NCBI RefSeq assembly: GCF_011516925.1
Contig: NZ_WOTG01000005.1
Span: 1-64,000, forward strand
Direction: 5' to 3'
Source of the DNA: Acetobacter fabarum
Lineage (GTDB): Bacteria > Pseudomonadota > Alphaproteobacteria > Acetobacterales > Acetobacteraceae
Length of the DNA stretch: 64,000 bases
Positions 1-4,712 of this stretch are shown here, in pieces. The position numbers were made by a program, and so were the translations under genes. Position 1 is the stretch's first letter, and each line of letters opens with the position of its first letter. The notes beneath the pieces were generated by a model, which saw only the letters and a list, made by a program, of their open reading frames with translations, was not told the origin of the DNA and searched no databases.

Positions 1-501
1 GGTTACGCGGCCTTCAATGTTGTCTTCCTCCATTTCTGGCGGATAGACGGGGCGCACATTGTTCAGCGGCGATGTTCCGGCCGTTGTATCGGGCGAATCA
101 TTGGGCGGTGTATCCGCAGGCGGGGCCTTTGCTGTCTGGGTTGGCGGAGCCACAGGCTGCTTGGGCGGTGTGCGGGCCACGTGCCTCATGGGTGGCTTGG
201 GGGGCGGCGGCACCTCGATCTTTGGCGGCGGAATGAACGGCGGCGGAGGCACCGTCATCACCGGCGGGGGTGGTGGAGGCGGCGGCGGCGGCGGCGGAGG
301 GGGTGGCGGCGGCAGAACGCGCGTCTGAATGGGCGGTCTGGCCGGCGGGGGCGGGCTGTCACCATTCCCCATCCCGTAGATCAGTCCCCATATGCCCAGC
401 ACATGCATGATCAGCACAAGCAGGAACGCAATCACACCAACAGCAGCACTTGCCCGAAAGGCATACTTTGCCGAACCTGGCTGCTGCTCAGGGTTACTCA
501 T
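1..501 (-). CDS. tonB: TonB energy transducer (C-terminus cut by window edge)
   Basis: The frame opens at ATG 501, five bases after a GGGAGGG ribosome site, and stays open to base 1 (167 residues seen). Residues 1-15 are a short cytoplasmic tail and about 16-42 are one hydrophobic membrane anchor. A proline-rich periplasmic spacer follows, including an unbroken run of 17 prolines and later PPPP/PPP clusters with lysines. The last visible residues (NVRPVYPPEMEEDNIEGRV) match the opening of the TonB C-terminal domain. TonB proteins, with ExbB and ExbD, transmit the proton motive force to outer-membrane receptors. No exbB or exbD is visible, but they could lie beyond the edge. The family call is firm; the receptor served is unknown. 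Confidence 0.9.
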   Translation of the reverse strand, partial: MSNPEQQPGSAKYAFRASAAVGVIAFLLVLIMHVLGIWGLIYGMGNGDSPPPPARPPIQTRVLPPPPPPPPPPPPPPPPPVMTVPPPPFIPPPKIEVPPPPKPPMRHVARTPPKQPVAPPTQTAKAPPADTPPNDSPDTTAGTSPLNNVRPVYPPEMEEDNIEGRVT

Positions 502-803: not shown

Positions 804-1935
804 CTACTGCGCGCTGGCACTTGCCTCCGAGCGGGTTGCCCCTACGCGCATGGCCAGTGCTGCCGCCATAAATGCGTCCAGCTCCCCATCCAGAACGGCA
901 TCGGGGTTGCCGGTTTCAACACTTGTGCGCAGGTCCTTGACCATCTGGTAAGGGGCCAGAACATACGACCGTATCTGGTGCCCCCAGCCAATATCGGTCT
1001 TGGCGGCTTCAGCTTCAGCCGCTGCCGCCTCACGCCGTTGCAGTTCGGCTTCGTACATCCGTGCACGCAGCATCTGCATGGCCGTAGCGCGGTTCCTGTG
1101 CTGGGAGCGGTCTGTCTGGCACGCAACCACAATCCCGGTAGGAATATGGGTGATACGGATAGCGGAATCCGTCTTGTTCACGTGCTGACCACCCGCGCCG
1201 GAAGCACGGAAAGTGTCCACCTTCAGGTCCGCGTCATTGATTTCAATTTCAATTGAATCATCAATAACCGGGTAAACCCAGACCGATGCAAAGGACGTCT
1301 GGCGGCGGGCTGCTGCATCAAAAGGAGAAATGCGCACAAGCCGGTGCACACCTGCTTCGGTCTTCAGCCAGCCATAGGCATTGGGGCCGGAAACCAGAAT
1401 GGTTGCGGATTTAAGCCCGGCCTGTTCACCCTCCGAGCTTTCAATCAGCGTGACCTTGTAATCATGCGCTTCTGCCCAGCGGGTGTACATGCGCAGCATC
1501 ATTTCGGCCCAATCCTGCGCTTCCGTGCCACCGGCCCCTGCGTTGACTTCCAGATAGCAGTCATTGCTATCCGCCTCGCCAGAAAGCAGGCTTTCAATCT
1601 CACGCCGTTTGGCTTCTTCCGCCAAGGCGCGCAGGCTGGCCAGCCCCTCGGCCACCAGATCGGCATCCCCTTCGGCTTCGGCCATTTCGATCAGCTCGGA
1701 GGTGTCGTTCACGTTGGTTTCCAACGCCTGCACACCCTCGATCTGGTTGGCCAGAAGCGTACGCTCGCGCATCATTTTCTGCGCGGCTTCGGGGTTATTC
1801 CACAGGTCGGGGTCTTCGGCCTGGTTGTTCAGTTCCGCAAGGCGGGCTTCAGCGACATCCCAGTTAAAGATGCCTCCTCAGCAGTGCGACCGACTGCTTG
1901 ATCTGTTCGTTAAGGGCTTCTGTCTCGGCGGACAT
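804..1935 (-). CDS. prfB: Peptide chain release factor 2, made by +1 programmed frameshift
   Basis: RF2 ends translation at UGA and UAA codons. The gene is in two frames. A 23-codon leader begins at ATG 1935 ([15 protein letters not shown]...LLRRHL) and meets an in-frame TAA at 1866-1864. Skipping one base resumes at AAC 1865 and reads to 804, giving about 376 residues. The body shows the SPF stop-reading tripeptide ([13 protein letters not shown]) and the GGQ peptide-release loop ([14 protein letters not shown]). The junction [15 protein letters not shown] aligns with the usual alphaproteobacterial RF2 N-terminus (LLRRHLDWD), so both parts belong together. The gene follows mrcA on the same strand, 59 bases apart. 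The start at 1775 used by simple ORF finders would lose the N-terminal helices. Confidence 0.95.
1864..1878 (-). promoter_or_regulatory. prfB +1 recoding site with TAA stop
   Basis: Read on the minus strand: AGGAGG, CAT, CTT, TAA, C. The layout is that of the classical RF2 site (internal Shine-Dalgarno, three-base spacer, CTT slippery codon, stop, C), but the stop is TAA instead of TGA. In known systems low RF2 lets the ribosome slip at this stop, which makes RF2 autoregulated. Confidence 0.88.
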
Positions 1936-1994: not shown

Positions 1995-4712
1995 TCAATA
2001 AAGGCCGCCCATGCCAATGTCACCCCCAGAAGGTGCGGGAGGGGGTGCGCTGTTGCCTTCGGCCGGGCTGGCCGCAGCCGCACCAGACGGGCCGGAACCA
2101 TTGACGCTGGCCGCCATATCGCTTTCCGAATCCGGCATGTTCTCGGCCCCTGTATCGGCGGCACTCAGCTCCTGAGCATCCACGTTGCTCAGCAGGTTGG
2201 CACTCACACCGGGGAGCTGACCGTCCTTGAACGCATCTATCGCAACACCACGGCCCGTATCGTAGCTGACCAGTGTCACGCCATCGGGGGCAGCAAAGTC
2301 GAGCTTGGGCTGGTCCTTGAGGGCCGTCTTCATCACCTTGTTCCACAACGGGCCGGCAATGGCGCCCCCCGTTTCGTTCCGTCCAAGGGACTGGGGCGTA
2401 TCAAACCCGACCCATACGACTGTCACCAGCTCAGGCGTGTAACCTGCGAACCAGGCATCGTTAAAGTTCTGGCTGGTGCCGGTTTTGCCTGCGATGGGCG
2501 TATCTATGCCCTCACCCGCCCGCACACCCGTACCGCGCCGGATAACGTCCTGCAGCATGGTCGTGATCTGGAAGGCACTCTGCTCGGATGCCGCCACGGG
2601 CCTGTCATCACGCAAAGCGGGGAGGTCCTGCGGCGTGAGCACCACAACCGACGGCTGGGGGGAAGGCTGGCCTGAGCCCGCACCACCAGCATTTGCCTGC
2701 GGTGCATCCGGGTGTATGGCGTCCACCCCATTGGCTGCGCCAGCCCCCCCGGCAGGCAGGGAAGACGCCGCAACCAGAGACAACCCGCTTGCAGGCCGCC
2801 AGATGACATGCCCATCACGGTCCTGCACATCATCAATCAGGGTCGGAGTAATCCTGCGCCCTCCGGCGGCAAGGGCGGCGTAGGCTCCGGCCTCCTTGAG
2901 CACCGTGGTTTCCACAGCACCCAGCGCTGCAGGCAGCACGTGGGGCATGCTATCCACCAGCCCGAGCTTGATGGCCGTATCCGCAACCGTGTTCATGCCC
3001 AGATGGGCGGCAAGGCGAATGGTCACAAGGTTGCGCGATTCACGCAGCGCGTCATGCAGGGACGTGGGGCCCCAGAAGTCTTTTTCGTAGTTATTGGGGT
3101 GCCATGTGCCGTAGGACACGGGGGAGTCATCAAACTCCTGAGAGGGCGATATACCCTGCTCCATGGCCTGTAGATAGACAAATGGCTTGAAGGAGGAGCC
3201 CGGCTGGCGCAGCGCCTGCGTGGCCCGGTCAAACTGCGAGGCCTGAAAAGACCACCCCCCCACCAGAGCAAGAACACGCCCCGTGCGGGCGTTCATGGTG
3301 ACAATAGCACCTTCCACAACCGGTATCTGCATCAGCGCAACACCGGACTGCCCGCTCTGGGGTTCGACCATCACAATGTCACCCGTGCGGAGGGGGCGGG
3401 CCCGGCGGACCCATGCCATATCCTTGGGCTGGATCTGCCCTGTATGGGGTTCACCCCCCTGCGCAACATTGCGGCGGACCACGCTGCCTTCCAGCCAGCC
3501 GACCTGCCCCTTGTTGCCATCCAGCACAATGGCCAGACGCCACTGGTCCAGCATACCGGCCGGAGCACTGACCGTGCGCAGGGCGCGCACCCACTCGTCC
3601 TGCGTGAGCGGCACAGGGGTATTCAGGTGCGTAACAGGGCCGTGCCAGCCACGGTGCTGGCGGTCATACGCCATAAGCCCCTGCTGCAAAATGGTCTGGG
3701 CCGCACGCTGGAGAGGCAGGTCCAGACTGGTATGCACATCCAGCCCCCCCTGCATGGTGACATCCTGACCATATTTTTCCAGCAGTTCACGCCGGACTTC
3801 CTCGGCAAACCATTCGGAGCCGGGAGCGGGGCCGGGGCGGGAATAGCTGATGCTGACAAGCGGCTCCGCCTCGGCCATACGGGCCTCGGCCTGCGTAATG
3901 GCGCCAATATCGGCCATGCGCTCCAGCACCCAGTTGCGGCGGCCCCGCGCTGCATCGGGGAAGCGGGCAGGGTTGTAATTGGTGGGCGACTTGGGCAGCG
4001 CCGCCAGAAACGCGACCTCCGCGTTATCCAGCTGGTCCAGAGGTTTGTTAAAATACGTCTGGGCAGCGGCACCAATGCCATAGGCACCGTTACCCAGATA
4101 AATTTCGTTCAGGTAAATCTCGAGGATTTTTTCTTTGGGCAGAACCTGCTCGATACGCATGGCCAGAAACGCTTCCTTGGCCTTGCGCTTGAACGAGACA
4201 GCATTGCTCCCTAGCAGCATGACGCGGGCAACCTGCTGCGTAATGGTGGACGCACCAATGGGCCTGCGCCCGCGTCCACGTGTCAGGTCGGTCAGGCCCG
4301 CGCGGATAATCGCGGCGGGGTCCACACCCTTATGGGTCCAGAACTTCTGGTCTTCCGCCGCGATAAACGCACTTTTCACCCGGTCGGGAATGGCGTTGGA
4401 GGGCACGAACACCCGCCGCTCGTCCGCCAGTTCGGCGACCAGCTGGTCATCCGATGCGTACAGGCGGCTCATGACCGGCGGCTGATAGGAGCGCAGGCCA
4501 TCCACTGTTGGCAGGTCGGCCACAATACTCTGGTATTGCGACCACACCACCACGGCCCCGCCAGCACTGCCCACCAGCAGCACGGCCGCAGCCGTGCCCA
4601 GCAGCATACGCCATTGGCGAAAGCGCGGCCTGCCTAACAAAAAGGACCGTGTTGTATCCCGGTCATGGGGGGGGGAAGAATCCGGATCACCAGAAGGTGG
4701 AGTGCGTGTCAT
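1995..4712 (-). CDS. mrcA: Penicillin-binding protein 1A, bifunctional glycosyltransferase/transpeptidase
   Basis: Class A PBP (905 residues) that polymerises and cross-links peptidoglycan in the periplasm. A cytoplasmic tail of about 35 residues leads into one membrane anchor (about 37-57). The GT51 domain shows AAEDQKFWTHKGVD, GASTITQQVARVML and EIYLNEIYLGNGAYGIGAA. The transpeptidase domain shows the SxxK nucleophile motif in PGSSFKPF, SRN (SxN) and GKTGTSQNFNDAWFAGYT (KTG). A low-complexity Ser/Ala/Gly/Pro-rich tail ends in GDIGMGGLY. Length agrees with alphaproteobacterial PBP1A. It is followed by prfB, an arrangement often seen in this class. Confidence 0.95.
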   Translation of the reverse strand: MTRTPPSGDPDSSPPHDRDTTRSFLLGRPRFRQWRMLLGTAAAVLLVGSAGGAVVVWSQYQSIVADLPTVDGLRSYQPPVMSRLYASDDQLVAELADERRVFVPSNAIPDRVKSAFIAAEDQKFWTHKGVDPAAIIRAGLTDLTRGRGRRPIGASTITQQVARVMLLGSNAVSFKRKAKEAFLAMRIEQVLPKEKILEIYLNEIYLGNGAYGIGAAAQTYFNKPLDQLDNAEVAFLAALPKSPTNYNPARFPDAARGRRNWVLERMADIGAITQAEARMAEAEPLVSISYSRPGPAPGSEWFAEEVRRELLEKYGQDVTMQGGLDVHTSLDLPLQRAAQTILQQGLMAYDRQHRGWHGPVTHLNTPVPLTQDEWVRALRTVSAPAGMLDQWRLAIVLDGNKGQVGWLEGSVVRRNVAQGGEPHTGQIQPKDMAWVRRARPLRTGDIVMVEPQSGQSGVALMQIPVVEGAIVTMNARTGRVLALVGGWSFQASQFDRATQALRQPGSSFKPFVYLQAMEQGISPSQEFDDSPVSYGTWHPNNYEKDFWGPTSLHDALRESRNLVTIRLAAHLGMNTVADTAIKLGLVDSMPHVLPAALGAVETTVLKEAGAYAALAAGGRRITPTLIDDVQDRDGHVIWRPASGLSLVAASSLPAGGAGAANGVDAIHPDAPQANAGGAGSGQPSPQPSVVVLTPQDLPALRDDRPVAASEQSAFQITTMLQDVIRRGTGVRAGEGIDTPIAGKTGTSQNFNDAWFAGYTPELVTVVWVGFDTPQSLGRNETGGAIAGPLWNKVMKTALKDQPKLDFAAPDGVTLVSYDTGRGVAIDAFKDGQLPGVSANLLSNVDAQELSAADTGAENMPDSESDMAASVNGSGPSGAAAASPAEGNSAPPPAPSGGDIGMGGLY

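Follow-up and report, generated by a model that had tools for sequence, protein, structure and literature searches.

A TAA-type prfB frameshift site across a clade of Acetobacter

In a clade of Acetobacter, the programmed +1 frameshift site of prfB, the gene for release factor 2 (RF2), carries TAA in place of the usual TGA and, judged from the genomes sampled here, this form is fixed in the clade rather than a scattered oddity. We think it likely that the site is the classical autoregulatory frameshift of RF2 with UAA in the ribosomal A site, the change from TGA to TAA having been near-neutral for the switch and the new stop having then stayed. The identity of the stop matters here, as it is a main argument that the cassette senses RF2 alone. 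A switch readable by RF1, clade-wide and repeatedly evolved, is a natural experiment on the worth of RF2-specific feedback; among close relatives of the acetic acid bacteria the cassettes match except at this one base, which makes the importance of that feedback directly testable.

The prfB cassette in Acetobacter fabarum

The window analysed is a stretch of 64,000 nucleotides from Acetobacter fabarum (contig NZ_WOTG01000005.1, positions 1 to 64,000), in which prfB lies on the minus strand. Its zero-frame leader (1867..1935) opens with ATG at 1935 and has 23 sense codons, closing with CTG AGG AGG CAT CTT, after which come TAA and C. The leader thus contains an internal Shine–Dalgarno-like AGGAGG (1873..1878), CAT as a three-base spacer, and the slippery codon CTT (1867..1869), where, from the E. 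coli literature, tRNA-Leu would be expected to slip from CUU to UUU. The in-frame stop TAA (1864..1866), which is TGA in the sister clade, and the +4 base C (1863) follow. A first-pass annotation of this DNA had read TAA at the shift site, behind AGGAGG with three-base spacing, and the minus strand bears it out. The RF2 body, starting AAC TGG GAT (NWD...), occupies the +1 frame through its stop codon (804..1865, minus strand; 353 aa) and matches TIGR00020 with 516.9 bits against a cut-off of 370 (519.3 bits in the genome search). Immediately upstream of the shift site this frame is blocked by TGA, and its first ATG, GTG or TTG is body codon 31; full-length RF2 therefore depends on the frameshift. 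Above the family cut-off the genome encodes a single RF2, with two more matches below it, and it also has one RF1 and an RF3.

The site has the sequence features of an RF2 frameshift cassette. The Shine–Dalgarno-like hexamer stands three bases before the slippery codon (AGGAGG CAT CTT), the RF2 body is reached from a short leader by a +1 change of frame that no ordinary start would bypass, CTT and the +4 C are both present, and the stop should be readable by the RF2 encoded here, which carries SPF and SGAGGQ; UAA is a codon read by RF2. A stop for RF2 only, TGA, is usual without being a defining feature, and its place is taken by TAA. In common with the TGA form are AGGAGG, the three-base spacer, CTT, a stop, C and an RF2 body after the shift; it differs in that RF1 too is able to terminate at TAA and RF2 gets Asn, not Asp. 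Leader and body join as LLRRHL-NWD, and we agree with the first-pass annotation that this is a real programmed-frameshift cassette with UAA and no annotation artefact.

The genus sample comprised 49 genomes, three without an RF2 match at threshold and one (G027) truncated, leaving 45 loci. Across these the leader protein is conserved with synonymous changes, the hexamer is AGGAGG in 44 and CGGAGG in one, and CTT and the +4 C are each present in 45/45. TAA stands at 30 of the 45 loci and TGA at 15. An error of sequencing or assembly, or a downstream start yielding RF2 without the leader, is extremely improbable. We found nothing in favour of either; the same TAA recurs in 24 named Acetobacter assemblies (for this count, the gene in L063 lies at the locus edge and its TAA is unconfirmed) as well as at the 30 genus loci, which excludes a sequencing error, and a downstream start would have to lie at or beyond body codon 31.

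RNA structure past the hexamer gave no signal (z −0.02), the region folding no better than shuffles. Flanking the stop, GGCAUCUU and GGGAUGUC (window 1854–1874, minus strand) could form an 8-bp hairpin. Further along the window, positions 1–501 (minus strand) encode a protein that looks TonB-like: it is rich in proline, with one long polyproline stretch, and its N terminus resembles a membrane anchor.

Distribution of the TAA form

The TAA variant itself is already known and cannot be called unprecedented. The consensus YTT_TRA_C was given by Antonov et al. (2013, PMC3711429), and in 8,164 genomes the prfB shift sites were reported, in the accessible text of Prince et al. (2025, PMC12421855), as TGA in 98.6% and TAA in 1.4%; as far as the available portions of the two papers describe it, the published TAA form of the cassette is exactly the Acetobacter variant. 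What is apparently unreported is its distribution at the level of clades. A literature search of incomplete coverage, with subscription papers mostly outside it, turned up neither TAA fixation across an Acetobacter clade nor, by title, a paper on Acetobacter prfB.

A cassette pattern with either stop matches 334/397 sampled Acetobacteraceae genomes. The TAA pattern, which is narrower than the either-stop pattern, matches 19 of the 397, in 3/102 genera: Acetobacter (g1, 10/14), Gluconobacter/Neokomagataea (g54, 7/13) and the reduced-genome genus g30 (2/2). Among 26 RF2 sites read in g54, 11 have TAA and 15 TGA. Within Acetobacter, AGGAGGCAT is found in 43/45 loci, TAA and TGA alike, with the same hexamer and spacer, and no cassette change that might compensate for TAA was consistent across the loci compared. 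Two reduced-genome Acetobacter, L201 (G039) and L202 (G038), keep TAA with TAT as spacer, one of them having CGGAGG for AGGAGG; their cassettes read CGGAGGTAT and AGGAGGTAT, respectively, and AGGAGGTAT also occurs, among the matches listed, in the TGA relative G375.

A wider scan, for TAA-form cassettes leading into TGG-GA, returned 48 stretches, of which 24 were from Acetobacter, six from Gluconobacter, three from Neokomagataea, three from Bartonella and 12 from others (Agrobacterium vitis, Tokpelaia, Sneathiella and Sneathiellales, Hyphomicrobiales, Breoghania and unclassified alphaproteobacteria). Individual loci with the TAA form include L056, L065 and L067 (Bartonella), L068 (Agrobacterium vitis) and L084 (Tokpelaia). 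A scan of 388 genomes of the phylum, which sought TAA only and so carries no TGA denominator, gave ten matches: the window's genome, one genome with a Bartonella clarridgeiae leader, and eight of genus g199. This genus belongs to family f46 (18 genomes), outside the window's class, and has TAA at 8/8 sites read (11 genomes, three without a readable RF2 site) in a cassette AGGGGG-CAT-CTT-TAA-C (L225, L236–L240, L242, L243), while its sister genus g212 has TGA at 5/5 (seven genomes, two without a match). A TGA match in G596 (g199) was rejected as an RF2 site, there being no RF2 after it.

Evolutionary history

The stop was mapped onto a tree of RF2, with the junction residue removed, combined with the gene immediately upstream of prfB, which in the window (1995..4712, minus strand) encodes a PBP1A-family penicillin-binding protein (TIGR02074, 569.3 bits). 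Of 81 rows, L169 and L187 were excluded for want of the PBP gene, leaving 79, one of which (L141) has no site. This is a quick tree without bootstrap, in which the named outgroup does not form one side of a branch and some branches are long, including those of g30 (0.81) and L141.

The window's clade of Acetobacter, in which L196 is the row closest to the window, has TAA in 18/18 rows (SH-aLRT 100), and the adjoining Acetobacter clade has TGA in 7/7; a tree from RF2 alone recovers the same TAA clade (99). On these sequences, TAA in this clade is best read as a single change on its stem. Parsimony requires at least four TAA/TGA changes on the tree, three of them forced by well-supported branches alone, and a single origin of all TAA rows is rejected (p-AU 5.3e-50, in a test that presumes a group named beforehand). 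Acetobacter, Gluconobacter/Neokomagataea and g30 would thus, by parsimony, each have gained TAA separately, with a further separate origin in g199, outside this tree. For Gluconobacter, one gain plus one loss and two gains fit the tree equally.

Prince et al. describe TAA, in the text available, as spread over multiple phyla and not broadly clade-fixed (PMC12421855), whereas here one Acetobacter clade is fixed for it and every g199 site read carries it. The Acetobacter pattern contradicts the published inference, as far as the accessible part of that paper states it, that clades are not fixed for TAA, which was the reason given for its being poorly tolerated.

Retention of TAA and the residue after the junction

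Once acquired, TAA appears able to persist for a long time. The 30 Acetobacter TAA genes have a median fourfold-site divergence of 0.55 (maximum 0.84), yet the A that decides between TAA and TGA is identical in 30/30, with zero reversion. As a control, none of the 42 conserved Gln, Glu and Lys codons of these genes is free of A/G wobble changes along the tree (mean 3.79). Retention is weaker evidence in the other TAA groups, where 9/51 (g54) and 8/46 (g199; first 330 codons, compared without alignment) of the control codons are likewise unchanged.

The base that makes the stop TAA is also the first base of an RF2 codon, and the change from TGA to TAA would replace Asp by Asn in the protein. 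Selection could have favoured Asn over Asp after the junction, with UAA as a by-product, an explanation that we regard as unlikely. The TAA sites read do encode Asn, as the base change requires, and 23/24 other RF2 columns restricted to Asp and Asn show no change across these 30 genes. Because those columns are frozen too, the retention test does not separate codon from amino acid: a constraint on the residue could explain the unreverted A, and retention is no proof that the codon itself was selected. Against a preference for Asn, relatives that make RF2 without a frameshift have Asp after the junction in 13/15 scored cases and Asn in 2/15, and one genus has both (L253 Asn, L254 Asp), which indicates that either residue works, Asp being the commoner. 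This set came from 22 non-cassette genomes, five without a match, giving 17 loci, of which L258 and L260 (the latter visibly Asp) were left unscored. The first-pass annotation had compared the junction with the LDWD of such proteins; 13 of those scored read LDWD and the other two LNWD.

The same relatives bear on the idea that regulation has been lost and that the frameshift is a relic of fixed efficiency. In its favour, several species are described as little affected when prfB autoregulation is removed (accessible portions of PMC8710568 and PMC13245932). Against it, elements that slippage requires are kept in Acetobacter: CTT, the AGG at leader codon 21 and the +4 C are each conserved in 45/45 loci despite large synonymous divergence, whereas hexamer and CTT are both absent in 15/15 scored frameshift-free relatives, these genomes having been chosen for mismatch to the cassette pattern. 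RF2 overexpression is moreover toxic in B. subtilis, according to the text available of Prince et al. (PMC12421855). We consider a relic highly improbable.

One frameshift-free locus (L141/L244) is from a small genome, G113 (genus g66, Acetobacteraceae), that sits amid frameshift users; its RF2 frame runs uninterrupted across LLRRHLDWD, the hexamer is altered and TTG stands where CTT would be.

Probable frameshifting at UAA and a possible contribution of RF1

Our preferred reading, the classical switch with UAA in the A site, takes its mechanism from E. coli, where the Shine–Dalgarno-like element holds the ribosome in place and slippage of tRNA-Leu from CUU to UUU competes with termination (PMC13245932, accessible text). 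In Acetobacter, a ribosome with peptidyl-tRNA-Leu on CUU would be strained by AGGAGG three bases upstream and would either terminate at UAAC or slip to UUU and go on to make RF2. Scarcity of RF2 should slow termination, so that more RF2 is made. As UAA is also read by RF1, this factor would act as an added brake and the loop would sense a weighted sum of RF1 and RF2, its RF2-directed gain dropping by RF1's share of UAA termination. We infer slippage and RF2 feedback by analogy with E. coli, and the RF1 term along with them. With F as the shifted fraction and s as RF1's share of termination, the modelled gain toward RF2 is (1−s)(1−F) instead of (1−F), and that toward RF1 is s(1−F). Synthesis rates in the available part of PMC5373646 would put s at 0.10–0.14 if the two factors had equal kinetics. 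Equal kinetics cannot be assumed, because in E. coli with the K-12 type of RF2 it is mainly RF1 that reads UAA, though RF1 is made in smaller amounts; where RF2 is of the B type (Ala246), both factors do so (PMC5373646, same portion). The evidence cited by Prince et al., in the text available, makes RF2 the main reader of UAA in most taxa (PMC12421855).

All 78 tree rows with a site (27 TAA, 51 TGA) encode RF2 with Ala four residues before GGQ. This residue in Acetobacter we take to be position 246, and so of the E. coli B type. An Ala-type RF2, together with the cited evidence that UAA is in most taxa read chiefly by RF2, suggests that feedback at UAA is probably blunter, because RF1 and RF2 overlap there, and not abolished. 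The first-pass annotation had proposed a feedback that depends on both factors and is blunter or differently wired; its observation of the stop was confirmed and this interpretation is partly supported.

A stronger form of that proposal is that RF1 does much of the termination at UAA, so that the cassette chiefly registers the total capacity to read UAA and the level of RF1 sets that of RF2. The summed sensing of both factors would then be an adaptive rewiring, kept across the Acetobacter clade and with independent origins in three or more further bacterial lineages. We consider this quite unlikely. UAA is an RF1 codon, RF1 being its main reader in E. coli K-12 (PMC5373646, as far as available), and TAA has, by parsimony, several origins after which it persisted. 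A scan of RF1 columns in 27/27 family genomes (G544, G484 and G548, of another family, left out), covering the three TAA lineages of the family and not g199, gave two columns common to the Acetobacter TAA lineage and g30 and absent from ten TGA rows. The Gluconobacter TAA lineage has neither, and neither of the two (residues 136 and 167 of the open RF1 frame in the window's genome) falls within the PxT or GGQ motif. Seven other pairings of Acetobacter groups with a Gluconobacter group, g101 or g30 share 0, 0, 0, 0, 0, 1 and 1 columns, and pairs of closer kin that do not share a stop have 3 to 20 in common. The two columns thus stand little above the level of unrelated pairs and may be taken as a weak lead. 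In RF2, where a compensating change might be sought, no column rare among TGA rows was shared by as many as two of the family's three TAA lineages. The large share that RF1 can take in K-12 and the two RF1 columns led us to trim our confidence in the classical switch very slightly, and we still hold it likely.

Summed sensing would also accord with fewer UGA stops in TAA genomes, and this was seen in two of three genome contrasts: 49% of stops are UGA on the TAA side vs 60% on the TGA side in one (p 0.097) and 41% vs 74% in another (p 1e-07). The third contrast is flat (39/66 vs 44/79, p 0.74). Open reading frames were taken by length and base composition only, the TAA sides covering 200, 180 and ~122 kb and the TGA sides 200, 220 and ~134 kb. 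The loci around prfB, pooled by group, show the same tendency in Acetobacter, where UGA makes up 54/99 stops with TAA vs 35/48 with TGA, but not in Gluconobacter (23/47 vs 6/13). With UGA lower on the TAA side in two contrasts, one of them significant, and not in the third, we rejected stop-codon usage as a general driver of the change. Drift in GC content was rejected as well, since GC on the TAA side falls below that of the TGA side in two contrasts but exceeds it in the third (0.628 vs 0.535), as was loss of RF3 as a companion of TAA, RF3 being above its cut-off in 7/7 genomes tested.

The middle residue of the RF1 PxT motif is itself variable in the family, being Ala in 20/27 genomes and Thr, Ser or Met in seven (L282, L283, L284, L285, L288, L289, L290). 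These seven comprise four TGA Acetobacter, two TAA Acetobacter and one g30, and the residue does not follow the prfB stop.
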